Shown here one piece after another: positions 23,049 to 36,313 of a stretch of DNA of 64,000 bases. Source of the stretch: Alphaproteobacteria bacterium. Lineage in GTDB: Bacteria; Pseudomonadota; Alphaproteobacteria; SMXP01. The first letter of the stretch is position 1. Every line of letters starts with the position of its first letter. The notes beneath the pieces were generated by a model. That model searched no databases, had not been told where the DNA came from, and saw only the letters and a program-made list of their open reading frames with translations. Location of the stretch: NCBI GenBank assembly GCA_028285305.1, contig JANQPV010000056.1:225096-289095 (forward strand), in the 5' to 3' direction. The translations under genes were made by a program, and so were the position numbers.

Positions 23049-25328
23049 TCACGCTGCGTCTTGATGCTTCTCTTTGGAAGACCGAAAGAAGCGACGCCTT
23101 TTCCGGGGGGAACGGGACTTCTTCGCAGCCATCTTCTTATGACCATACTGGGTCGTGTAGTAGGCATCATCACCATGCCCATATGCCTTGATACGAGCCA
23201 GGTCGGCCTGGGATAACAACATGGCAATGCGCGGACAGCCCGCCATTTGAACTCTTTCCAGAGCACTCGCAAGAGCCGACGCAGGCGTTGCCTCCCATTT
23301 GACCGCGAAAACCGTTGCATCCAACCAGCGAGCGAGTATAGGCGCATCCCCAACCGGCAATATTGGGGCACTGTCCAGAATGATGAAGTCATACGCCTGT
23401 CGGACTTGATCGAAGAACAACTGAACGGACGCGCTATTCAAACCAAGAGGTTGGGCGTACACCGCCTCTTTGAGTGGCAAGATTTCAAGACCGGAATCCC
23501 GCTCCGCCACAACCGCTTCTTCCAGCGTGCACTGACCAGTAAGGACCTCCACGAAGCCGGACGATACATTCTTCACCAAAGCCGACGACAAAGATGGATT
23601 GCGAAAGTCTCCATCGATTAACAATGTGCGGGCACCACCCAGTGCCGCCGTTTGCGCAAGACAAAAAGCCGAAGTGCTTTTGCCTTCACCTTCTAAGGCA
23701 GACGCCATCATAACGACTTGCGGAGGTGTGTTGACGTCCAAAAGAACGAGATTCGAGTGCGCCAATCGAAACGCTTCGGAAAACCGTGAGCGGCGGTGTA
23801 GCACCAAGTAATTTCGAATCCCCATGGCCCGCGTCCCCCGCTGACCAACGAGCTGAGTCTGCAGAGGAATCGTTGCCAGGTTCATGGCGCCGAAGGCGCT
23901 TTGGAGCTGACGGCCGGTGGAAAAGGTCTCATCCAAAATCCCGAACAAAAAGACCAGACCAAACGCGAAAACGCCCGAGCCTAAAAATCCGAGCACCACC
24001 ATAACTTTGCGGTTGGGCTCAGCCGGCGCCATCGGCAACGTCGCCTCAGAGATCTGCCGTGCAACGGGATCAAATGGCCGCTGACCGGCAAGGACCAAAG
24101 AACGCCGGGATTCTTCAAGAAGATTGTTCAGCAAGCGACGCTCTGTCTCCACCCGTCCCTCAAGAACAGCTAATTGAGATAACGCCGATTCCTCCGCCAG
24201 GTCGATCTGCTCGAACGTTTCGACACTTTCTAAAAGGGAAGCCACCCGCGAGCGCGCCACCGAGAGGTCATTGTCGAGTGCGGCAACGTTCCGCGCAATT
24301 TCAGCCTCAATCTCACGCGCGAGATCAGCGATTTCCGAGTTCAAGGCAACAAAGCTGGGATGGCGCGAACCCAACATCGTGGAATACTCCGCCTGCTTCT
24401 GCCTAAGGCTCGCTTGTCGCTCGCGTAGGTCGGCCATCACGCGGGAGTCCATCGCCCTGCCGATCGTCTCTGCACTTTCTCCCCGCTCAATCAGCGCTCT
24501 AACTTCCCGCTGCCGGGCTTCATATTTGGCCAAGTCCGCCCGCGCGAGCGCCAACTGGTGAGTCAACTCTCCCAGTTGCATGTCCGCCGCGGTGTCCTGC
24601 CCGGTCAATGCTAAACGATGCTGCTTTTTGAAGGTTTCGGCGGCCGTTTCCGCTTCCTTTAATCGGGTCTGTGTACGAACAAGTTCACCCTTGAGCCAGG
24701 AACTGGTTGATCGATGATCTTCCACCTGCGTTGTGAGGCTGAAATTCAAATACGCCTCTATGAGCCCGTTTGCGATTTGCGCGGCCCGTGCCGGGTCTTC
24801 GGAGCGCGCGGAAACCGTAACCAGATAGCTCTTGCTCTGCCGCACAGCTTCGATCCGCGCCCCCAACAATTGCACGGCTTTGTGAATTTCACGCGCCGTC
24901 ACGGCTTCTTTCTGCTCAGCGTCCTGAGACGCATACGCCGCCATTATGGGTTGCTGGCGCTTTTGCTGATCCCGAATGCGGGCATTAAACTCAGGCACCC
25001 GGGCCAAATCGAGCTCGGCGACCACCCGCTCCATTAACTGGCGTGAGCGCAAAATCTCTATCTGCGTCGCAATAAAGGGCGCTTCTTTGTTTTCGGAGCT
25101 TTGCGTACCACTTTCCAAAACCCCCGGCGACGGCGGCCGCAATTCCAATTGAGCCGACGAGACGTAGCGATCCGTCATCTGCATACTGAAAATCGCAGAC
25201 GCCAATGTCCCCAGCACAACAATGCCGGCGGCCAACCATAGCCGGCGCCGCACCGCGACATAGACGTCTTTCAGGTCAATGGGCTGGATCGAACCACTGC
25301 TCTCTTGGGTCAACAACTGCGAAGGCAT
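23049..25328 (-). CDS. Polysaccharide co-polymerase / tyrosine autokinase (Wzc/ExoP type)
   Basis: A 759-aa inner-membrane protein that controls chain length and export in Wzx/Wzy pathways. A membrane segment near residues 30-50 (LAAGIVVLGTLASAIFS) leads to a long periplasmic coiled-coil region, then a second membrane segment (VMVVLGFLGSGVFAFGLVFLFGI). The cytoplasmic BY-kinase has Walker A LEGEGKSTS (about 545-553), Walker A' LLIDGDFR and Walker B FIILDSAP. A C-terminal Tyr cluster is present (Y716, Y723, Y724, Y728), followed by an unusually basic tail (RSPRKRRRFFRSSKEK). I prefer the ATG at 25328 to the TTG at 25349. It opens the exopolysaccharide locus; no Wza-type export gene is adjacent. 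Confidence 0.93.
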   Translation of the reverse strand: MPSQLLTQESSGSIQPIDLKDVYVAVRRRLWLAAGIVVLGTLASAIFSMQMTDRYVSSAQLELRPPSPGVLESGTQSSENKEAPFIATQIEILRSRQLMERVVAELDLARVPEFNARIRDQQKRQQPIMAAYASQDAEQKEAVTAREIHKAVQLLGARIEAVRQSKSYLVTVSARSEDPARAAQIANGLIEAYLNFSLTTQVEDHRSTSSWLKGELVRTQTRLKEAETAAETFKKQHRLALTGQDTAADMQLGELTHQLALARADLAKYEARQREVRALIERGESAETIGRAMDSRVMADLRERQASLRQKQAEYSTMLGSRHPSFVALNSEIADLAREIEAEIARNVAALDNDLSVARSRVASLLESVETFEQIDLAEESALSQLAVLEGRVETERRLLNNLLEESRRSLVLAGQRPFDPVARQISEATLPMAPAEPNRKVMVVLGFLGSGVFAFGLVFLFGILDETFSTGRQLQSAFGAMNLATIPLQTQLVGQRGTRAMGIRNYLVLHRRSRFSEAFRLAHSNLVLLDVNTPPQVVMMASALEGEGKSTSAFCLAQTAALGGARTLLIDGDFRNPSLSSALVKNVSSGFVEVLTGQCTLEEAVVAERDSGLEILPLKEAVYAQPLGLNSASVQLFFDQVRQAYDFIILDSAPILPVGDAPILARWLDATVFAVKWEATPASALASALERVQMAGCPRIAMLLSQADLARIKAYGHGDDAYYTTQYGHKKMAAKKSRSPRKRRRFFRSSKEKHQDAA

Positions 25329-25466
25329 AACGCTTAGACTGAACCTCAACTAAATACCGATCAGACCCGCCTCTTCAAATGGCACATCCAAACCACTGCT
25401 TTTCGGGCTGGAAGTCTTTGGTCCAATCTACTGATTCGCGGGCAACGGCGATACCGAAGGGCACCC

Positions 25467-26537
25467 TCATTCGGCAGCGTTTAGGAACTTTTCCAAGATC
25501 CGCATTTGCGGGGCAGTCTCACCGTCCCGCCGCGGATGAATGCTGAACGGGTAATCCCCCCACCAGGCTCCCGCCGCCCAATAGCTCCACCCCATCCAGG
25601 CATCGGCGTTGACGTGCATATGTTCGAGCATCTGCCCGAGTGCGCGCAAGCAGATTGCGGATCCCCCTGCCCCAAACTCACCCAAAAACGCGCGCGTGCC
25701 CGTCTCTTGGAGCCACGCCGTCATTCCTTCAAGCGCGGCGGCGCCAACTCCGGGTGACTGGCAGGATGGGTCGGTGCCCGAATAATCACCATCTAAATAC
25801 TGATGCACCTCGAACGCAAAATTGTTCGCCGGATCTTTCAGGACTTTCAGTGCGTCGGCGTTTCCCGACCCCTTCCAGGAATGCGCCCCGGACCAGGCTG
25901 TCCCTGGAACCAGCACAAGATTTTGTGCACCTTCCTCGCGGATGGCCCAAAGCGCCTTTTGTGCGGACGCGGCCCAGTCCGCCGCCGGAATACCGTGCGG
26001 CTCATTCATCAACCCGAAAACAACCAGAGCATTGTCCTGGTAGCGGCGGGAGAGTTTTCGCCAGAGATCCAAAAAGGCTTGTTCTGTGGGCGTGCCCGGA
26101 AGAACGCGCTCCCCCCGATACCGGCCATAGTTATGAACATCGAGAATGAGCGTCCCCCCGGCCCCCGTGACCGTGTTCACAATCCGGTCAATTTCTCTCA
26201 GTTCTGTCTTGTGAAGCTTACCGGAGGGCTCGCGCTGCAGACGCTCCCAGCGGAACGGCAAGCGCACACCGGCAAAGCCCTTGCCCAAAAAATAGTCAAT
26301 TTCCTCGGTACTCGGATAGATATAGTCCCGGCCCAGAACGCCCGGGAGCTCGTCGCCCGTGAATTCAGCCCCGGCGAGGTTGACCGTGGCGAGGGGGGCG
26401 GCGGCGTGGGCAACAGCCGCGCTGAAGTTCGCTGCGCCCGCCAAAATGGACCACGCCAAAGCCGCCCAAAATGCAGACGCCGCTGGGCGAAACCCCACGG
26501 ATCTCGCCACGACTAGAACGCGCAAATCAGGGGACAC
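25467..26537 (-). CDS. Glycoside hydrolase family 5 endoglucanase
   Basis: A 356-aa exported GH5 enzyme. The N-terminus has a hydrophobic export signal (about residues 21-47, ending AVAHAAA). The catalytic pair is E179 in GLMNEPHG (acid/base) and E287 in FLGEFGAG (nucleophile). H-N after ILDVHNYGRY and the W in WMGWSYWAAGAWWG are also family features. Most bacterial relatives cut beta-1,4-glucans. Placement inside the polysaccharide locus suggests it trims or releases the cell's own polymer, as BcsZ does for cellulose, but a degradative role cannot be excluded. Its 5' end overlaps the FkbM methyltransferase gene by 25 bases. Confidence 0.88.
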   Translation of the reverse strand: MSPDLRVLVVARSVGFRPAASAFWAALAWSILAGAANFSAAVAHAAAPLATVNLAGAEFTGDELPGVLGRDYIYPSTEEIDYFLGKGFAGVRLPFRWERLQREPSGKLHKTELREIDRIVNTVTGAGGTLILDVHNYGRYRGERVLPGTPTEQAFLDLWRKLSRRYQDNALVVFGLMNEPHGIPAADWAASAQKALWAIREEGAQNLVLVPGTAWSGAHSWKGSGNADALKVLKDPANNFAFEVHQYLDGDYSGTDPSCQSPGVGAAALEGMTAWLQETGTRAFLGEFGAGGSAICLRALGQMLEHMHVNADAWMGWSYWAAGAWWGDYPFSIHPRRDGETAPQMRILEKFLNAAE

Positions 26538-27400
26538 TTATCGATCTGATCGGGATCAACTTTCTCGAAAGAAACGGATACGCCTTCGATAAAGCTTCCC
26601 ATTGATATCTTGCGCCGGAACGTGACGAAGTTCCGATAACCAATATCCCTCAGAATGCGCGCACAGCTTTCGCGCGCGTGCGGCAACTTCTCGTACAGAA
26701 CAATAGGCTTGTCCCGTCTCAAATGTCGCTCGGCGCCTTCAAGCACCTTAGCCTCGTGTCCCTCAACGTCGATCTTGAGCATGCTCAGTCTTAATCCCGG
26801 ATCGATTTCGTCAACAAGATCATCGAGCCTGTCGGTGGGAACCCTTACCGAAGAGGAAGAAGGCTGATCAGTGGTTTCAAGGCTCGCCCAACCGGCCTGC
26901 CCCTCAAACAACCGGAGATCCGATTGGCCCTTCTTGTTGGAAGCGCCCGCGCAGACAGCATGGACGCCTCCCTTTCCCGAAGCTGCGATGTTCGCTTCCA
27001 ACACCTTGTAGGTGGAGGGGTTTGCCTCTATCGCAATCGTTTTACGAAAATACTCCGCGTACCTTATCGTATATACGCCTATGTTTGCTCCGACATCAAC
27101 GAACCCTTCCCAAGACCCGGCAAGACTATTTGAAAGTAGCTCAGGGTTACTCAAGATAGCATCCAACGCATCCAATTGCGTCTGCTCAAACACGCCAGTC
27201 GAAATTAGACGCTGTCCGATCAAATCAGACGTAGGAACGTACATGGTTCTTGCAAAGTGGTGATTCTTCTTCGCGCGTTTGTTCATCGCCTGTAACAAGG
27301 TAAACATGATTTCATCCAGGACCAATGAAACAAATGGCCGCTTCCTGATCACTTTGTCAATTTGTGTGGAAACTTTTATTGTCAAAGGAGAAACCCGCAT
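26513..27400 (-). CDS. FkbM-family methyltransferase
   Basis: A 295-aa SAM-dependent methyltransferase of the FkbM family, often found in polysaccharide clusters where it O-methylates sugars. Motif I is FVDVGANIGVYTIRYA, followed by the acidic TIAIEANPSTY, and MLKIDVEGHEAKVLEGA, the most diagnostic FkbM block. No signal peptide. The ATG at 27400 is chosen over the TTG at 27421. The next gene downstream (GH5) begins inside its 3' end. Its sequence is more A+T rich than the flanking core genes. Confidence 0.86.
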   Translation of the reverse strand: MRVSPLTIKVSTQIDKVIRKRPFVSLVLDEIMFTLLQAMNKRAKKNHHFARTMYVPTSDLIGQRLISTGVFEQTQLDALDAILSNPELLSNSLAGSWEGFVDVGANIGVYTIRYAEYFRKTIAIEANPSTYKVLEANIAASGKGGVHAVCAGASNKKGQSDLRLFEGQAGWASLETTDQPSSSSVRVPTDRLDDLVDEIDPGLRLSMLKIDVEGHEAKVLEGAERHLRRDKPIVLYEKLPHARESCARILRDIGYRNFVTFRRKISMGSFIEGVSVSFEKVDPDQIDKCPLICAF

Positions 27401-27443
27401 GTCCAAAAGCCATACACTCAATCTAGAATGGTATCACCCGTAA

Positions 27444-28796
27444 TCAGCGACGAATCAGTTCTAAAGCAAAGGAAACAGCAGTCCCCAGTGGAAAAACAGT
27501 TAGAACCCCGCGTCTGGACCAGCTCCAATATGCTGTCAGAGAATGCAAAGCAGTAACGTAGCACAGACTGGCGATCGCAACGCCAACCACCCCAGAATAC
27601 TGTGACAAAGTCCACAAGAGTATTAGATAGATTGGAAACACAATAAACTTCAACATCAGATAGTCCCGTTCGCCACCTGTCAAAATCATTATCCAATCTC
27701 CAGGCCCCATAAACAAACGGATCAATACGGAAACCGTCAAGATCACCAACACATTGGCAGACTCTGCGAACGCGTCCCCAAACTGAGACATAATGACATC
27801 ACCAAAAGCTACCATCGGTACACTAATCAACAGAGCCGGAACGAGGAACATTATTGAACAGGTTTTGATAGTACTTTTTAAATCCTCAAATCTACCGCCG
27901 AGATAGCTCTGTGAGATTTTGTGTTCGTGTACGGTTGAGGCTACCACCGCAGACAAGGACAGTAATTGAGACAATCTAACTGCAATAAAGTACGCTGCGG
28001 CGGCTTCAAAACCTAAAACCGCGCCAACTAGAATTGTTTCGAAAAACGAACTTAGCGCTTCGAACAACGAATGAGCTGTAAATGAATAAGACTCGTACCG
28101 TTGCGAAGTTGTTCGGCAGTCTAAAGAGCTCTGAGAGAATAACGATTTTTCTTGGCGCCTTATCCGCACCACCTGGAGGATTGCTACACCCCACAGTGTT
28201 GCCGCTGCAAACACTCCTATCTGAGCCCCGGAAACCTCCGTCCCGAACAATACGCAAACCGCACCACAAAGGATAATTCCAAATCGCCATAAATTCTCGC
28301 GAGGAACAAGCGACCACATGATCTGTCCGCGAGCACGAAAGTAATTAAGCCCGTACTCAGATAGGGAAAATGCGCTCGCAATCAAAATGGCTATGTACAA
28401 CCCCTCAAATCGCTGGGGAAAAACATCGGAGATTAAGAACAGAACAACTCCTAGAACGACCAATCCAAGGGTTGATGTTCCGAGAATTCTAAAGTTACTC
28501 TCAAGCACACATTTATTGCGGCCCGAATCATTGCTGGGGTCGTAGTGTTTCAAGACGACAAGCTGTTGTCCCCAGGTCGCGACGAGACCGACCGCGCAGC
28601 CTACTGAGAATAGAAAGACAAAAGCACCGTACTGACTGGGTCCCAGAGCGTGAGCCAATACCCACATCATTGCGAAGCTCAGAACGGTGCTCGATCCCCT
28701 TGCTACAATCGCGACAAGTGTGGCGGGAACCTCGAACTGGGATGAGTCCCTCAACTTCAGAAGAGGACGAAGGTTGAGCGGAAATGATGGTCTCAT
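27444..28796 (-). CDS. Wzx-like polysaccharide flippase
   Basis: A 450-aa integral membrane protein with about 12 to 14 hydrophobic helices (for example STVLSFAMMWVLAHALGPS, LGLVVLGVVLFLISDVF, LIRLFMGPGDWIMILTG). It belongs to the MOP/polysaccharide-transporter superfamily, whose members turn lipid-linked repeat units to the periplasmic face. The N-terminal pattern ARGSSTVLSF...LGPSQYGAFVFLFS is typical of the group. It is followed by the FkbM gene after 43 bases. Base composition is lower in G+C than the neighbours, typical of acquired polysaccharide genes. Confidence 0.85.
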   Translation of the reverse strand: MRPSFPLNLRPLLKLRDSSQFEVPATLVAIVARGSSTVLSFAMMWVLAHALGPSQYGAFVFLFSVGCAVGLVATWGQQLVVLKHYDPSNDSGRNKCVLESNFRILGTSTLGLVVLGVVLFLISDVFPQRFEGLYIAILIASAFSLSEYGLNYFRARGQIMWSLVPRENLWRFGIILCGAVCVLFGTEVSGAQIGVFAAATLWGVAILQVVRIRRQEKSLFSQSSLDCRTTSQRYESYSFTAHSLFEALSSFFETILVGAVLGFEAAAAYFIAVRLSQLLSLSAVVASTVHEHKISQSYLGGRFEDLKSTIKTCSIMFLVPALLISVPMVAFGDVIMSQFGDAFAESANVLVILTVSVLIRLFMGPGDWIMILTGGERDYLMLKFIVFPIYLILLWTLSQYSGVVGVAIASLCYVTALHSLTAYWSWSRRGVLTVFPLGTAVSFALELIRR

Positions 28797-28833: not shown

Positions 28834-30183
28834 ATGCCACGCTCGAAGCGGTACGCGGATGAAATATACTGGATGGCACTGAGTGGCCGCGCTACATTTT
28901 ACCCGATTCTCTCCCTTGAAGATCCGACGTTGTTGGACCTTCCGAGCACCTGGCCGTCACAAATGAAAACTGCATATCGATTCTTTCGAGCCCACCTCCT
29001 GCAAAGAATGATTAGGGGATCACAAATCCCATCCCCCAACACTCAGCGACCCGAGGTCGTGGGCCTTTTTTCCTCAACGTCGGGAATTGGCCAGTCGGCA
29101 AGACTCTGTGCCAACGCCCTATCAGAGGATGGCGTCCTTCACCGATATAGAGACGTGATGAAGACTTTCAGGAAGGAACCTGAGCTGCAATTTGACCTGC
29201 CTCAACCAGATGCTCCCCACACTCCAGACGTTTCCATCTATCACCTCAACCCCCCTATGCTTCCGCCTGCCATCCTGAGTGAAGGGATGACTGCGTTTTG
29301 TAGCAAATACAACATTGCGTACTGGGCATGGGAACTGGATATTCTGCCCCAAGAATGGCAGCGTGCCCTCAAATACATGAATGAGATATGGGTTCCGTCT
29401 CAGTTTACGGCAAATGTCATACGCAAGTATACGGGTAAGCCAGTCAGAGTCGTGCCTCATCCTGTCGACGTTACCGAAGTCCAACTCGGCGCACGGTCAA
29501 GCCTCGGCCTCGACAGTGACCATTTTGTTGTCTCCAGCATTTTTAGTTTCGGCTCCTCTTTCGGACGAAAAAACCCGATTGCCGTTGTACGTTCGTTCCT
29601 TTCTGCATTTCCAAGCGTGCCTGAAGCCCGGCTCGTGATCAAAGCCACGGAGGGTGAGGCCTATCGAGCAAATGTAGATGAACTCGAAGAGGTCATCGGA
29701 CACGACAATCGAGTGCTGATCGTCGACGAAGTATGGCCAATGAAGAAGGTGTATGGCTTGCTGGCAGAATCGGACGCTTACTTATCTCTCCATCGCGCCG
29801 AAGGATTTGGACTGACAATTGCCGAAGCACAACTCCTAGGGGTGCCTGTGGTAACCACAGATTGGTCAGGCACGAGAGACTTTGCCTTCGAAGATTCAAG
29901 CTACTTGGTGCCAATTCAGCTGACTGAAGTTAAGGATCCACATCCGGAGTATCGGTCCTTAGCAGGAGCAAAGTGGGCTGAACCTAACGTTCACGCCGCA
30001 TCCCGACATCTTCAAACCATCTATGAGGATCGCAACCAAGCAAAAGAAAAAGCCGAATCGGCAAAAAAAAGAACTCGAGACTATCTCGATGAAAGTACAT
30101 ACTCACGAACTCTGGCGTACCTTTCGCGCGACGCACATGAAGGCAGCGTACCGAACCAAAACTCCATTCCGCTCACTGCCTAA
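28834..30183 (+). CDS. Glycosyltransferase, GT4 family
   Basis: A 449-aa cytoplasmic retaining glycosyltransferase with a GT-B fold. The N-terminal half contains GLFSSTSGIGQSARLCANAL, where the glycine-rich loop accepts the acceptor phosphate. The C-terminal half has FGRKNPIAVVRSF and the donor-binding E-x7-E motif, HRAEGFGLTIAEAQLLGVPVV. The donor and acceptor sugars cannot be read. Its start is only 37 bases from the divergent flippase start; a later in-frame ATG at 28873 is possible. The gene is transcribed opposite to most of the locus. Confidence 0.86.
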   Translation: MPRSKRYADEIYWMALSGRATFYPILSLEDPTLLDLPSTWPSQMKTAYRFFRAHLLQRMIRGSQIPSPNTQRPEVVGLFSSTSGIGQSARLCANALSEDGVLHRYRDVMKTFRKEPELQFDLPQPDAPHTPDVSIYHLNPPMLPPAILSEGMTAFCSKYNIAYWAWELDILPQEWQRALKYMNEIWVPSQFTANVIRKYTGKPVRVVPHPVDVTEVQLGARSSLGLDSDHFVVSSIFSFGSSFGRKNPIAVVRSFLSAFPSVPEARLVIKATEGEAYRANVDELEEVIGHDNRVLIVDEVWPMKKVYGLLAESDAYLSLHRAEGFGLTIAEAQLLGVPVVTTDWSGTRDFAFEDSSYLVPIQLTEVKDPHPEYRSLAGAKWAEPNVHAASRHLQTIYEDRNQAKEKAESAKKRTRDYLDESTYSRTLAYLSRDAHEGSVPNQNSIPLTA

Positions 30184-30308: not shown

Positions 30309-31082
30309 TCAATTTTCATTCTGTATCAAGAATGTCGCAAATGTTTCTCGAGGCGAATACACGTAGTCTTTGGCAGGGACCTCGAACAATTTCTGAACGT
30401 TCATCAACCCAAATGGTTCCTTATCGAGAAAAACGCCTGAATGCTCGCAAACCCGAATATCATATCCACTTGGTTTGTCTTTGTTGAACGACTTCAGCAA
30501 GTTGGGATCCGGGAGGTGTTCCGTTACAATCACGTATTTGAACTTTCTAGTCTTCTGCAAAATCGACTGTATTTGGTCATTCGACAAATGCTGCAAGACT
30601 TGACGAACAAAGCAAAGATCTCCTTCGGGAAGTTCTTGCGTAATAGCGTCGACGCAAACGAAAGAGCATGTATCAGAGCCAAAAGCGTGGTTGAGGTGAT
30701 CAACGAGCGATGCAACAATATCTATCCCAATATATTTCGTGCCTTGATGCATGAGGCGACGACCAACGCGAAAATCGCCGCAGCCCAAATCAACTATAGT
30801 CTCAATTTGATCTTCTCGCTCTTTGATGAAGGCGAGCACAGTTTCGACATAGAATTCCGTTCCTTCCGAATCTGATCCCGGACCGGAATAAAACTCACCT
30901 TCCTCCCCGCCCCATACATTTCTGGAATAGATTCTTTCGAACCGCTCCGTCGTTGAAAGATTGGCATTCGCAAAACGTCGCAGGAGTCTGCCAGCGTTAT
31001 GCTTCATATCAAGCACCCGCGCAGCTAACTTGTTAATTGGCAACAGAAGTTCTTTTTTGGAAGAACCAGTAATTGTCGGCAT
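30309..31082 (-). CDS. Class I SAM-dependent methyltransferase
   Basis: A 257-aa protein. Motif I is TIVDLGCGDFRVGRRL, with the acidic residue after beta-2 in YIGIDIVASLVDHL. LPEGDLCFVRQVLQHLSNDQIQ is motif IV with the post-motif region. These fix the fold but not the target. In this location a sugar O- or N-methylation role is plausible. It is among the most A+T rich genes of the window (one sampled 60-base line has 23 G+C). There is no signal peptide. It stands alone, 85 or more bases from the polymerase gene. Confidence 0.8.
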   Translation of the reverse strand: MPTITGSSKKELLLPINKLAARVLDMKHNAGRLLRRFANANLSTTERFERIYSRNVWGGEEGEFYSGPGSDSEGTEFYVETVLAFIKEREDQIETIVDLGCGDFRVGRRLMHQGTKYIGIDIVASLVDHLNHAFGSDTCSFVCVDAITQELPEGDLCFVRQVLQHLSNDQIQSILQKTRKFKYVIVTEHLPDPNLLKSFNKDKPSGYDIRVCEHSGVFLDKEPFGLMNVQKLFEVPAKDYVYSPRETFATFLIQNEN

Positions 31083-31167: not shown

Positions 31168-32433
31168 TCACCGTGTGATGAGCTTGGCGCGCTCCTCGAG
31201 CGGACGGAGCTGACTTCTAATTTCTATGAAGAAACACACCCCCACCAAGAACCAGGCAAACGCCGCAGTTTTGATAGAGAAGAGCGAGTAGCTGACCATC
31301 ATCGTCAGCGCCAGGTATAATAACAGTCCGTGCACATATGTCCTTGACGGCGCAGACTGACCCGGTGCGGCAAGCGAAATCCAAATCCAAATCACCATAA
31401 GGCCGATTGCTGACTGTGTCAGCATGAGATAGGCAATCCCGGAATCGGCGGCCGGACCTCTCAAGGCATCATCGAGCCCCAGGTACGCAAGAAGCGAGAA
31501 ATCCGAAAATAGGGCGACGGTGTGCGCCATTCTCCCCGCAAAATTATCAGCTCCCGGCTCGAATCCGAACAAATGGACAACGAGAAATGTCCCTGCCAGA
31601 ACCATCGGCAAGTAGAGAACGTGGAAATACCGGGGCAAATACGCATACGCCCAAGACGTGGCCGCAATCAGGGCGCAGGTGACGGTGGCCAGACGCCCGT
31701 CTGACCCCACGAGAACGGCAAAGATGGAAACCCCGAAAAACAGCCGCATGCCCCATCTCATTCGCCCAAAGAACGCAGCAGCAAAGATCGTAATCAGGAT
31801 GGCCCAATTGCCCAGCGACACAGGTTCCAAAAAGATCGAAGACAGACGATGAACGTCGATCCCATTGAACCAAAACCGGTCGCCGGGCCGCGTTGCGCTC
31901 ACAAAAAGGTCCGAGTCTTCGTTCCAAAAGTTTTCTTCAGTGAAGTCACGCGTGTTCACATAATAGCTCTGCACGCCCAGAACATCGGCAAAGGCCGCCG
32001 GCGCCACAGCCTCTAAGAGCATCACGGCGACGACCAGCACCTGCAAACCCGCAACAAAACGCACAAGGATTTTGAAGTCCCGCAATTGTGATGCAACCGC
32101 GATGCCCAACATGACAAAAGTGGGGATCAGGATCACGTCCCGGAGGAGTTTTGGATCGAAAGACTGGCGGAAAACACCAAGACACAGCCCCAGAACGCAC
32201 ACAAACCAAAGCAGTCCCAACCAAGGGCCCATCTCCCTCCGCCAAAACAGCAAACTCGTACCCAATGCCATCCCAACCAGCACCACCTCGGCACCGACAA
32301 CATGGGCGCGCGTAACACCAAACAGGTTGGCGTTCAACAGAGACAAGACCGCGTTAAAGGACAAACACCCCGCGACGATGGCAAAGCCGAGACTGAGGGG
32401 ACCAACGCGAATGCGAGGACGCGCAGCGGGCAT
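31168..32433 (-). CDS. Wzy-like polysaccharide polymerase / O-antigen ligase-type membrane protein
   Basis: A 421-aa polytopic membrane protein with about 10 to 12 helices (LSLGFAIVAGCLSFNAVLS, VVGAEVVLVGMALGTSLLF, FVAGLQVLVVAVMLLEAVA, and others). A large periplasmic loop follows the middle helices (SYYVNTRDFTEENFWNEDS ... GDRFWFNGIDVHRLSSIFLEPVS). Topology and context fit a Wzy polymerase, a group with very low sequence conservation. The ORF track starts at 32514, overlapping the upstream GT4 gene by 50 bases; the ATG at 32433 gives a more normal start. Assignment rests on topology and neighbours. Confidence 0.72.
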   Translation of the reverse strand: MPAARPRIRVGPLSLGFAIVAGCLSFNAVLSLLNANLFGVTRAHVVGAEVVLVGMALGTSLLFWRREMGPWLGLLWFVCVLGLCLGVFRQSFDPKLLRDVILIPTFVMLGIAVASQLRDFKILVRFVAGLQVLVVAVMLLEAVAPAAFADVLGVQSYYVNTRDFTEENFWNEDSDLFVSATRPGDRFWFNGIDVHRLSSIFLEPVSLGNWAILITIFAAAFFGRMRWGMRLFFGVSIFAVLVGSDGRLATVTCALIAATSWAYAYLPRYFHVLYLPMVLAGTFLVVHLFGFEPGADNFAGRMAHTVALFSDFSLLAYLGLDDALRGPAADSGIAYLMLTQSAIGLMVIWIWISLAAPGQSAPSRTYVHGLLLYLALTMMVSYSLFSIKTAAFAWFLVGVCFFIEIRSQLRPLEERAKLITR

Positions 32434-32464
32434 AGGACTGTAGTGTGACCGAACCCCAATCGTA

Positions 32465-33604
32465 TCAGGCAGCAAGGATCCTCCGCCTCCCGTCGGCCTC
32501 CCCCTCAGGACCAAGAGCCATCAAATAGACCCTCTCCACGTCTCGAGCATAGGACGGCCAATTGAACTTCTCAGCATACGCCTGAGCGCGGCTTTGCTCA
32601 TTTGATCTTTTGTCCGCCGTCAGGCACGCACGCCAATTAGCGAAACGCTCGGCCGCCTGATGAGGGTCAGCAAAGTCCAACAAGAGCCCAACCCCCGCTT
32701 CCCGCTGTAGGACCTCAAAAGAGTCATTTCTATGAACGATGGGCAGAAGACCCGCAGCCATACATTCAATCATGGTCATACCAAACCCTTCATAGGCTGA
32801 AGCCGACACAAAGAATCCGCACCGACGAAAAAGCCGGGTCAGCTCTCCATCATTCAAAAATCCGTAGACCGACACTTTGTCCTCAATGCCCAAACTTTGC
32901 GCATGTTCAATGAGTGCAGCCCGCGAAAGATCGAATTCCGGGCCCACGATGTGCAAGTGGCCAGCATCCCCTTTTTCGTTGAGCCTCGCATAAAAAGCCA
33001 ACAAACGCTCCAGGCACTTATTTTTGGACAAGCGGCCGAGATACAAAAGGTCGTCACCTGAACACCGTTCTGTCGTCACGGGCCGAACCGCATTTGGAAG
33101 CACGTTCACCCGATTGGTGATTTTTCGAAACAGCGCACCGTCGGCTTCGCTGCACGCGATAAAGCCGTCATAGCTGTGCGCAAAGAACCGCGTCAGTGAG
33201 TGAAAATAGGCGACTTTCAGGGGCTTTAGGTAGCGCGTGTGGAAGAACCCGCCATGGGTCGTGCAAACGAGCGGCTTGCGATGCACGCGCTTTGTTACCC
33301 CGCAATGATCGAAAAAATTATCAACACAATGAACATGTAACAAATCTGCCTCGCTGAATTTCACTCCGGAGAACTGCGCAAGAAAATAGCGTTGCCCCCC
33401 CGTAAAGGGAACGCGCCGCACATTTATCCCATCGATCATTTCGCTTTCGGAGAGCACATCCTTGCTCCCCCGAAACAGACGATTCAAAGTAACGACCTGC
33501 ACATCATATCCGAGACTTTTTTGCGCAGCAGCAAGAGACGCCACGTGCTGTTCCAGGCCGCCGACCGAAGGTGAGTATTGCCTGACGAGATGAGTGACGC
33601 GCAT
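32465..33604 (-). CDS. Glycosyltransferase, GT4 family (GumH-like)
   Basis: A 379-aa GT-B enzyme. It opens with VTHLVRQYSPSVGGLEQHV, the GG loop of GT4 enzymes, then LHVHCVDNF and CTTHGGFFHT. The donor half has LLYLGRLSKNK and ASAYEGFGMTMIECMAAG, the E-x7-E motif. The short length and opening resemble GumH and AceC alpha-mannosyltransferases of xanthan and acetan pathways, which add the third sugar to cellobiosyl-PP-lipid. This is suggestive beside a GumD-GumM fusion, but specificity is inference. It lies directly upstream of the polymerase gene on the same strand. Confidence 0.82.
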   Translation of the reverse strand: MRVTHLVRQYSPSVGGLEQHVASLAAAQKSLGYDVQVVTLNRLFRGSKDVLSESEMIDGINVRRVPFTGGQRYFLAQFSGVKFSEADLLHVHCVDNFFDHCGVTKRVHRKPLVCTTHGGFFHTRYLKPLKVAYFHSLTRFFAHSYDGFIACSEADGALFRKITNRVNVLPNAVRPVTTERCSGDDLLYLGRLSKNKCLERLLAFYARLNEKGDAGHLHIVGPEFDLSRAALIEHAQSLGIEDKVSVYGFLNDGELTRLFRRCGFFVSASAYEGFGMTMIECMAAGLLPIVHRNDSFEVLQREAGVGLLLDFADPHQAAERFANWRACLTADKRSNEQSRAQAYAEKFNWPSYARDVERVYLMALGPEGEADGRRRILAA

Positions 33605-33847: not shown

Positions 33848-36187
33848 ATGGAACGCCAAATTCCCAGCGATACATCTGTGCAAGGATCTTTTTTGCCATC
33901 GACGTTTACAAACGACATTACAGTCACGCATGATGCCTTGGACACAGGCACACAGACATTGGACCCTAGGCGTTTCTTGCCGGAGCTTCTTTCCGTCGCC
34001 GACGTGATTCTTCTTACCCTGTCGCTTTGGGCTGTCGCAAGTTTATGGCAGGTGTTCGACCCGCAATCAGCAAGGATCTTTGACCAGCACCTCGTGTTTG
34101 GCTTGGTAGTCAGCATTGCCTTTAGTCTCTTTGCATTCGAGAAGGGCCTCTACAATTTTCAGTCTGTACGCTGGCGTCTGTCGAACTTGACACGCTTGGG
34201 CGCCTTACTCGCGGCAACAGGAGCCGTCGTCATCGCGTTCCTCTTTGCCCTGGGAAAGGCCACGACATCGTCCCTTTGCGTGGTCGCCGCTGGATTGATC
34301 TTGGGGTTCTGTGCCATTTGCGGGATACGCCGGGCAACGGAACTGATGCTGCGTTCGCTGACCGGTCTTCAAGATGTGCTCACACCCCGGATTGCGATCG
34401 TGGGTCCGGCGCATAAAGCACAGGCCTTACGGGACCTTATCGAGACCTACAGAGACGAGGGAGATCTCTACCGTATCGTTGGCGTTTTTTCTGACCCGAT
34501 TCATTCAGAGTCACGCGAAGAGGCGAGCAAGGCCACAGGATCCCTGGATAACTTGATCCAGTATGCATTCCGCCATCGACTAGACGAAATCATTATTGTG
34601 CAACCATCTGCATACGGCCTTTCACTGCAAGAAGTGAAACATCGTCTCGCCTGTTTGCCGGTGCCGATACGGCTCTGCCCGGAGGGAACGGAGTTTCGGC
34701 TGCGCCCGACGGACTCCGACTACTCGTCCGAATTGGGTCTCATCACTCTGAGCAGGCGTCCGATCGATGGACTGTCCGGTCTCGTCAAGGATATCTTCGA
34801 TCGCATCTGCGCCCTTGGCCTTTTGCTCCTGACTGGCCCTTTGCTTCTCATGGTCGCCATAGCGATCAAACTCGAGTCTCCGGGACCGGTTTTCTTCCGT
34901 CAGAGGCGCCACGGGTTCAACCATCGGGTCTTCCAGATTTGGAAGTTTCGCACAATGTCATGTCTGGAGGATGGCCCGAACGTCAAACAAGCGTCCGAGG
35001 ACGGCGATGAACGCATAACAAAGCTGGGGGCATTTCTTCGAAAGACAAGCATCGACGAACTCCCTCAATTGTTCAATGTGCTGATCGGGGACATGTCCGT
35101 CGTTGGCCCGCGTCCCCACGCCTTGTCTCACAACGATCACTATTGCCGTCACATCGGCAACTATGCCTGCCGGCACACGGTTAAACCCGGAATGACCGGC
35201 CTGGCGCAAGTCGAAGGCTGGCGAGGTGAAACCAAGGACGTGTCCAAAATGGGCCGCCGCGTGTATTACGATCTGAAGTACATCGATCGCTGGTCACTCG
35301 CTCTTGATCTACAGATTTTGCTTCGAACGTTCGGCATTTTGGTGACGTCTCCCAAAGCCCAAGACCAAGACAAGACACCTTCTCTTTCGGCACTTCTGGA
35401 CTCGGTCTACGAAGCACACGGAGCAGACGCCCAAAAAGAACTCTTTCGCAAAATTGAATTCCATGAGAAGCCACTTACGCTGGCCTTTCTCAACGCACAC
35501 GGATTCAACCTTGCCTGGAAGGATGAAAAGTTTCGCAACGCTTTGCTGGGGTCTGATTATTTGATGCGCGACGGCATCGGAATGAAGATTGCCGATCTCC
35601 TTTTGGGCAAAAAGCCGGGCCTGAATATGAACGGTTCGGATCTCATTCCCGATCTGCTGAAGCAATTTCGAGGGCGACGCGTGGCCATATTGGGGACGGA
35701 AGATCCTTGGCTCAGCGAGGCTGTCGACAAACTAACGACGGACGGGATCAACGTGGTTTGGACCCATCATGGCTTTGAACCTCTGAGCTTTTATGTCGAA
35801 GAGGTAAAGTCCAGGGATTTAGAAGTCATCATCTTGGCCATGGGCATGCCCAAGCAAGAACTTGTCGCCCAGGCTCTTCTTCGCAGTATCCAGTCGCCTT
35901 CAATAATCGTTAGCGGCGGATTTGTTATCGACTTCATCGCGGGGCGAAAACCCCGTGCACCCGTGATGCTGCAACGAATGGGGATGGAATGGCTCTTCCG
36001 CCTCGTGCACGAACCCCAGCGTTTGTTCCGCCGATATGTTATCGGAAATCCGCTGTTCTTATGGCGTGTCTGTTATCTAGCTTTCCAAAGTGCGCGTCAC
36101 CGCGAGGCGCAGCAGGCAGAACAACTGCTGATCAAAGCCCCGGCCCTCGAACGAAGCTCCACCTCGATTGCCATAGCCGCAGAGTAG
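33848..36187 (+). CDS. Fusion of polyprenyl glycosyl-phosphotransferase (GumD/WcaJ type) and GT26 glycosyltransferase (GumM/WecG type)
   Basis: A 779-aa protein with two enzymes in one chain. Residues 45-160 hold four hydrophobic helices and 180-300 a Rossmann-like segment. Residues 312-505 form the sugar-phosphate transferase, with a membrane helix (LGLLLLTGPLLLMVAIAI), KFRTM (366-370) and SIDELPQLFNVLIGDMSVVG. After a short linker, residues 515-750 form a WecG/TagA/CpsF (GT26) domain with YLMRDGIGM, LNMNGSDLI, LAMGMPKQE (664-671) and RMGMEWLFRL. The first half would put a hexose-1-phosphate on undecaprenyl phosphate and the second add a second sugar. No stop or frameshift separates the halves. 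Confidence 0.9.
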   Translation: MERQIPSDTSVQGSFLPSTFTNDITVTHDALDTGTQTLDPRRFLPELLSVADVILLTLSLWAVASLWQVFDPQSARIFDQHLVFGLVVSIAFSLFAFEKGLYNFQSVRWRLSNLTRLGALLAATGAVVIAFLFALGKATTSSLCVVAAGLILGFCAICGIRRATELMLRSLTGLQDVLTPRIAIVGPAHKAQALRDLIETYRDEGDLYRIVGVFSDPIHSESREEASKATGSLDNLIQYAFRHRLDEIIIVQPSAYGLSLQEVKHRLACLPVPIRLCPEGTEFRLRPTDSDYSSELGLITLSRRPIDGLSGLVKDIFDRICALGLLLLTGPLLLMVAIAIKLESPGPVFFRQRRHGFNHRVFQIWKFRTMSCLEDGPNVKQASEDGDERITKLGAFLRKTSIDELPQLFNVLIGDMSVVGPRPHALSHNDHYCRHIGNYACRHTVKPGMTGLAQVEGWRGETKDVSKMGRRVYYDLKYIDRWSLALDLQILLRTFGILVTSPKAQDQDKTPSLSALLDSVYEAHGADAQKELFRKIEFHEKPLTLAFLNAHGFNLAWKDEKFRNALLGSDYLMRDGIGMKIADLLLGKKPGLNMNGSDLIPDLLKQFRGRRVAILGTEDPWLSEAVDKLTTDGINVVWTHHGFEPLSFYVEEVKSRDLEVIILAMGMPKQELVAQALLRSIQSPSIIVSGGFVIDFIAGRKPRAPVMLQRMGMEWLFRLVHEPQRLFRRYVIGNPLFLWRVCYLAFQSARHREAQQAEQLLIKAPALERSSTSIAIAAE

Positions 36188-36226: not shown

Positions 36227-36313
36227 TGGTGCGGCCGAGAAGACTCGAACTTCCACCCGTGTTACCGGACAGCGACCTCAACGCTGCGCGTCTACCAATT
36301 CCGCCACGGCCGC
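36227..36313 (-). tRNA. tRNA-Leu (anticodon GAG)
   Basis: An 87-base gene on the minus strand with a 7-bp acceptor stem (GCGGCCG with CGGCCGC), discriminator A and an encoded CCA. The D-loop is GGCGGAATTGGTAGACGC. The anticodon arm is CAGCG-TTGAGGT-CGCTG (anticodon GAG), followed by a long variable arm typical of leucine tRNAs, and the T-loop TTCGAGT. It lies between the glycosyltransferase fusion and fliN, on the strand opposite the fusion. Confidence 0.95.

Follow-up and report, generated by a model that had tools for sequence, protein, structure and literature searches.

In xanthan synthesis, a phosphoglycosyl transferase (PGT; GumD) and a transferase of the WecG/TagA/CpsF family (GT26; GumM) carry out steps 1 and 2 and are followed by a GT4 enzyme, with GumD and GumM made as separate proteins from separate genes. 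The holdfast pathway of Caulobacter also employs a PGT (HfsE) and then a WecG-type transferase (HfsJ), again as separate proteins; the presumed substrate of HfsJ is UndPP-Glc, an intermediate that can be supplied by PGTs of several alphaproteobacteria (PMC11340318). According to PMC10942596, O'Toole, Imperiali and Allen (2021) reported bifunctional monotopic PGTs (Bi-PGTs), whose PGT catalytic domain carries a further functional domain on its N- or C-terminal side. No paper on the exact PGT-GT26 architecture was found in the literature searched, which excluded the 2021 Bi-PGT survey. Public records already contain unremarked PGT-GT26 fusions named WecB/TagA/CpsF glycosyltransferase, and plasmid-encoded proteins of Sulfitobacter, Alloyangia and Ruegeria (e.g. 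WP_322329976.1) carry only this annotation.

The window analysed here is a stretch of 64,000 nucleotides from an alphaproteobacterial assembly (GCA_028285305.1, contig JANQPV010000056.1), in which a single gene codes for both a PGT and a GT26 transferase. Its product belongs to the Bi-PGTs by definition, since its monotopic PGT catalytic domain carries a fused functional partner (PMC10942596), and is set apart within them by a PGT of the large type, with a membrane bundle and a CoA_binding_3 domain, and by GT26 as the partner. The class, in the account of it given there, is already described; new in the window is an independent case uniting the large-PGT architecture with GT26.

A large PGT and a complete GT26 domain in one reading frame

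The fused gene (P0001; 33848..36187, forward strand) runs from an ATG to a stop codon as a 779-aa frame with zero internal stops, and the opposite strand of the same interval holds no frame of comparable size. The preliminary description had proposed a single polypeptide joining a glycosyl-phosphotransferase to a GT26 transferase, and this was borne out by the unbroken frame, which shows no stop around the join, and by Pfam matches to PF02397 and PF03808, both above their cut-offs. The motifs named there were located at residues 366-370 (KFRTM), 401-407 (SIDELPQ), 666-671 (GMPKQE) and from 713 on (MEWLFRL). From N- to C-terminus, Pfam and an AlphaFold2 model depict a membrane bundle, CoA_binding_3, a WcaJ-like PGT catalytic domain, a short linker and a full GT26, and in sequence searches the two halves match separate solved structures, WbaP and PglC versus TagA/TarA.

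The N-terminal half contains membrane helices typical of large PGTs at residues 47-170 (33986..34357) by hydropathy and in the model, where helices span residues 40-70, 81-98, 111-134 and 140-170. These are followed by CoA_binding_3 (PF13727, residues 100-278, 34145..34681; 36.1 bits, cut-off 25) and by the catalytic domain Bac_transf (PF02397, residues 314-498, 34787..35341; 215.1 bits), which aligns with PglC (8e37) and WbaP (8t53). Within the latter lie a D-x12-P motif at residues 318-331 (34799..34840), as described for the re-entrant membrane helix (PMC7484181), and the predicted catalytic Asp-Glu dyad in SIDELPQ (35048..35068), aligned with SLDELPQ of PglC. Together, the dyad-bearing domain, the membrane bundle and CoA_binding_3 place this half among the large monotopic PGTs of the WcaJ/WbaP type. 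It passes the NCBIfam model TIGR03023 (WcaJ, undecaprenyl-phosphate glucose phosphotransferase) narrowly (414.6 versus 410.75) and falls far under the cut-off of the HfsE equivalog (244 versus 750). The best-matching named relatives of this PGT, and also those of a carboxylase, are mostly Hyphomicrobiales. In structure comparison the model matches WbaP and PglC less strongly than TagA, and it is of low confidence at PGT residues 420-485, a likely effect of combining fused and unfused rows in the underlying alignment, from which one row from a plasmid record was left out.

PGT homology stops near residue 498-503, and from about residue 511 on the sequence aligns with stand-alone GT26 relatives, beginning at their native N-terminus. 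Between them lies a flexible linker of about 8 residues, delimited at residues 498-508 (35339..35371) by the model (pLDDT <50) and by alignment with the stand-alone N-termini.

The C-terminal half is a complete GT26 domain with its native N-terminus and C-terminal appendage (residues 511-760, 35378..36127), modelled mostly at pLDDT >90 up to residue 750 and adopting the TagA fold, with a target-normalised TM-score of about 0.8 for TagA (7mpk). A truncated N-terminus, considered because the usual first strand is apparently absent, was rejected, as stand-alone relatives begin alike. The Glyco_tran_WecG match (PF03808) covers residues 570-730 (35555..36037; 131.4 bits, cut-off 27.4). In TagA, Asp65 is the catalytic base and the C-terminal appendage is required for membrane binding and activity (PMC6493773). 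Aligned with 7mpk, D575 in RDGIGM (35567..35584) corresponds to Asp65, and Q670 and E671 in GMPKQE (35843..35860) to Gln167 and Glu168; N549 is also retained, as is the Arg-rich appendage MEWLFRLVHEPQRLFRRY (35984..36037), whose membrane-binding role is assigned by likeness to TagA. The PF03808 domain, the fold, the catalytic base, the Gln/Glu pair and the appendage together make this half a member of the GT26 family.

Two pocket residues of TagA are changed, with Phe547 replacing Thr37 and Asn593 replacing Arg83, and the donor or acceptor may therefore differ from that of TagA. The asparagine lies in the subfamily signature GLNMNGSDLIP (35618..35650) and is invariant in ten aligned GT26 subfamily members, which suggests a distinct GT26 pocket whose donor may not be ManNAc. 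The GT26 half barely passes the superfamily model TIGR00696 (WecB/TagA/CpsF; 69.4 versus 69) and misses the TarA, Escherichia coli WecG and EpsA equivalogs (66, 57 and 67 bits versus cut-offs of 350, 323 and 500); it shares 42% identity with a Lysobacter GT26 encoded in a PGT cluster. The labels GumD- and GumM-type in the preliminary description are too specific, while the pairing of PGT with GT26 stands, as does the narrow TIGR03023 match of the N-terminal half; "GumM" can be used as an analogy only.

The surrounding exopolysaccharide cluster

By the Pfam matches of its neighbours, the fused gene forms one end of a Wzx/Wzy-type exopolysaccharide cluster. It adjoins a divergent GT4 glycosyltransferase gene (32465..33604, reverse strand), a homologue of the GT4 domains that are fused to GT26 in Micavibrio UBA7689 (locus L110; 37% identity) and in genome G096 (locus L169; 35%). 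Farther along, also on the reverse strand except where stated, are a candidate Wzy-like polymerase or ligase (31168..32514; no Pfam match, role putative), a methyltransferase (30309..31082), a GT4-like glycosyltransferase on the forward strand (28834..30183), a candidate Wzx-like flippase (27444..28796; weak MatE match under the cut-off, role putative), an FkbM methyltransferase (26513..27421), a GH5 glycoside hydrolase (25467..26537) and a Wzz/BY-kinase polysaccharide co-polymerase with Wzz and AAA_31 domains (23049..25349). Homologues of the Wzy-like candidate adjoin GT26 or GT4 at loci L108, L110, L115, L146 and L159, and homologues of the GH5 enzyme occur in the clusters L108, L115, L146 and L159. 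Alphaproteobacterial MAGs, Methylophaga and Vibrio also have homologous sets of GT26, GT4, Wzy-like and GH5 genes. The xanthan gum cluster differs in gene content from that of the window, which includes GH5, FkbM and BY-kinase genes.

A tRNA-Leu (GAG) gene (36227-36313, reverse strand) lies about 40 bp past the fused gene and faces it. The same genome also carries a second, stand-alone GT26 and five more PGT domains; another contig holds this GT26 and a WcaJ-like PGT as separate genes some 17 kb from each other (G000:C76:16116-16625 and C76:33759-34325).

Split and fused relatives

A GT26 match is present in 76 of the 385 genomes of the class that were surveyed, and the window holds the only PGT-GT26 fusion detected when GT26 frames of at least 430 aa were examined for extra domains. 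Hidden PGT fusions in these long frames were rejected, as the partners were GT4 (G096), flippase-like (G055) or methyltransferases (G039, G319), never PGT, and the extra part of the remaining long frames had no match to the PGT queries. In plasmid records the PGT and GT26 are usually two neighbouring genes (28 bp apart in Chelatococcus; also Azospirillum, Rhizobium and Pseudoalteromonas), and in Micavibrio UBA7689 (L110) and Pseudomonadota KLAP117 (L116) the PGT stop codon overlaps the GT26 start. The premise of the preliminary description that the two enzymes are normally separate proteins is therefore correct for the usual state, in which the genes are often adjacent, but fused forms also occur elsewhere. 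PGT-GT26 fusions are rare.

Two fusions with the same domain order as that in the window, in Mycolicibacterium lacusdiani (L085) and a Mycobacterium MAG (L086), came from a one-genome-per-species scan that relied on a handful of short patterns and retained 80 loci, and its counts are to be read as "at least". They are about 800 aa long and share the GT26 subfamily of the window protein, whereas their PGT halves are only 36-38% identical to its own. In L085 (5011-7392), the dyad reads SIDGLP for SIDELP, an Asp-Glu to Asp-Gly change, and this PGT half may be inactive. In L086 (4954-6762), the gene immediately upstream of the fused one encodes another large PGT, with 61% identity in the catalytic domain. 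Four Roseobacteraceae plasmids (Sulfitobacter faviae, two of Alloyangia pacifica and Ruegeria sp. B32) encode fusions of the reverse order, confirmed by Pfam in two of the four; unlike the window protein, these WP_322329976.1-type proteins place GT26 first and have a small PGT without N-terminal domains.

At least three independent changes are required by the GT26 tree and likewise by the PGT tree, both built quickly and with SH-aLRT values as their only support. The former places the mycobacterial fusions within a supported (starred) clade with stand-alone proteins of Myxococcota and Kitasatospora and the Roseobacteraceae pair elsewhere, and leaves the window protein alone on its branch. In the latter, the window protein groups with Hyphomicrobium, Bradyrhizobium and Chelatococcus in a supported (starred) clade, apart from the other fusions, and the mycobacterial fusions are of independent origin in both trees. 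A single origin of all five fusions was rejected by an AU test on GT26 (one clade, p about 1e-74); the same test was borderline for the window protein and the mycobacteria as one clade (p 0.0475). On these sequence phylogenies, the PGT-GT26 fusion arose independently at least three times.

Proposed function and the reason for the join

The fused gene probably encodes a bifunctional initiator of Wzx/Wzy-type exopolysaccharide synthesis that yields an undecaprenyl-diphosphate-linked disaccharide. At the inner membrane face, the PGT half would load undecaprenyl phosphate with a hexose-1-phosphate, of which glucose-1-phosphate taken from UDP-glucose is the likeliest. The tethered GT26, kept at the same face by its C-terminal appendage, would then add the second sugar, and the disaccharide so formed would probably be extended by the neighbouring GT4. 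We infer both activities, glucose as the first sugar, the order PGT-GT26-GT4 and any benefit of fusion. Possible benefits include matched dosage, less lipid carrier stuck as the monosaccharide intermediate, and direct hand-over. Dead-end Und-PP intermediates trap the carrier lipid (PMC12826051), which gives a reason to couple both steps.

Channelling of the lipid-linked intermediate between the halves is plausible. It appears doubtful, however, that a large PGT with an attached second-sugar transferase is a channelling initiator in the full sense, one that never releases the Und-PP-monosaccharide, renders the first step irreversible and committed, and was reached independently in at least three lineages. 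The AlphaFold2 model (pTM 0.58) does not fix the relative placement of the active sites and lends channelling no structural backing, and the existence of both domain orders, together with the disordered linker, rather favours tethering without a rigid channel. The same two observations fit a neutral or expression-level fusion, in which the stop codon between coupled adjacent genes was lost and each enzyme functions as it would on its own, at equal dosage and without passing the intermediate across: both orders would not be expected of an exact channel geometry, the linker is short as well as disordered, and the split state is common, with the genes very close or overlapping, as in Chelatococcus, L110 and L116. 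Repeated independent fusion of the same pair may point to an advantage, but one that could come from dosage alone, and we consider the chances of this explanation to be about even. It concerns why the genes are joined and is compatible with a bifunctional protein.

That the pathway uses the activity of just one half, with the other a specificity or membrane-anchoring remnant, is improbable; the altered dyad of L085 demonstrates that a half can decay, and the five further PGT domains of the genome could lend support, but both sets of active-site residues are intact in the window protein. An assembly or sequencing error that merged two neighbouring genes is more improbable still, for even though in the closest split relatives the two genes adjoin or overlap in different frames and no fused orthologue occurs in the four examined genomes of the same family, such an error would require an indel that spared two complete, in-frame ends and a short linker, at a join with no long homopolymer and with codon-position G+C and frame continuous throughout, and independent fused forms are known in other genomes. 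At the level of sequence, the join is genuine.

Suggested order of the sugar-adding steps

Fused proteins reveal enzymes acting in succession, and the putative bifunctional initiator of the window can be read alongside fusions in which GT26 is itself joined to a GT4 of the family of the window neighbour. Such fusions are present at L110 (4308-6191) and at L116 (4661-5953, reaching the contig end). At L169 (2277-5003, reverse strand; genome G096), a 909-aa frame encodes GT4 and then GT26, the reverse of L110, with the GT4/GT26 assignment covering the residues beyond the first 260. As these fusions tie PGT to GT26 and GT26 to GT4, an order of action of PGT, then GT26, then GT4 is suggested as the simplest reading. 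The PGT-GT26 fusions of three lineages and the GT26-GT4 fusions thereby suggest in which order the first three sugars are added in a family of exopolysaccharide clusters that is widespread and whose products are mostly uncharacterised. If the intermediate is indeed passed on between the halves, the window protein would offer a natural system in which to test how bacteria avoid dead-end trapping of a scarce lipid carrier, and a ready tool for making lipid-linked disaccharides. Other partners of GT26 are found at L051 (1435-3183), L053 (1444-3345) and L047 (1426-3510), all on the reverse strand, where it is joined to methyltransferases (two genomes) or to a flippase-like Polysacc_synt domain (one genome).
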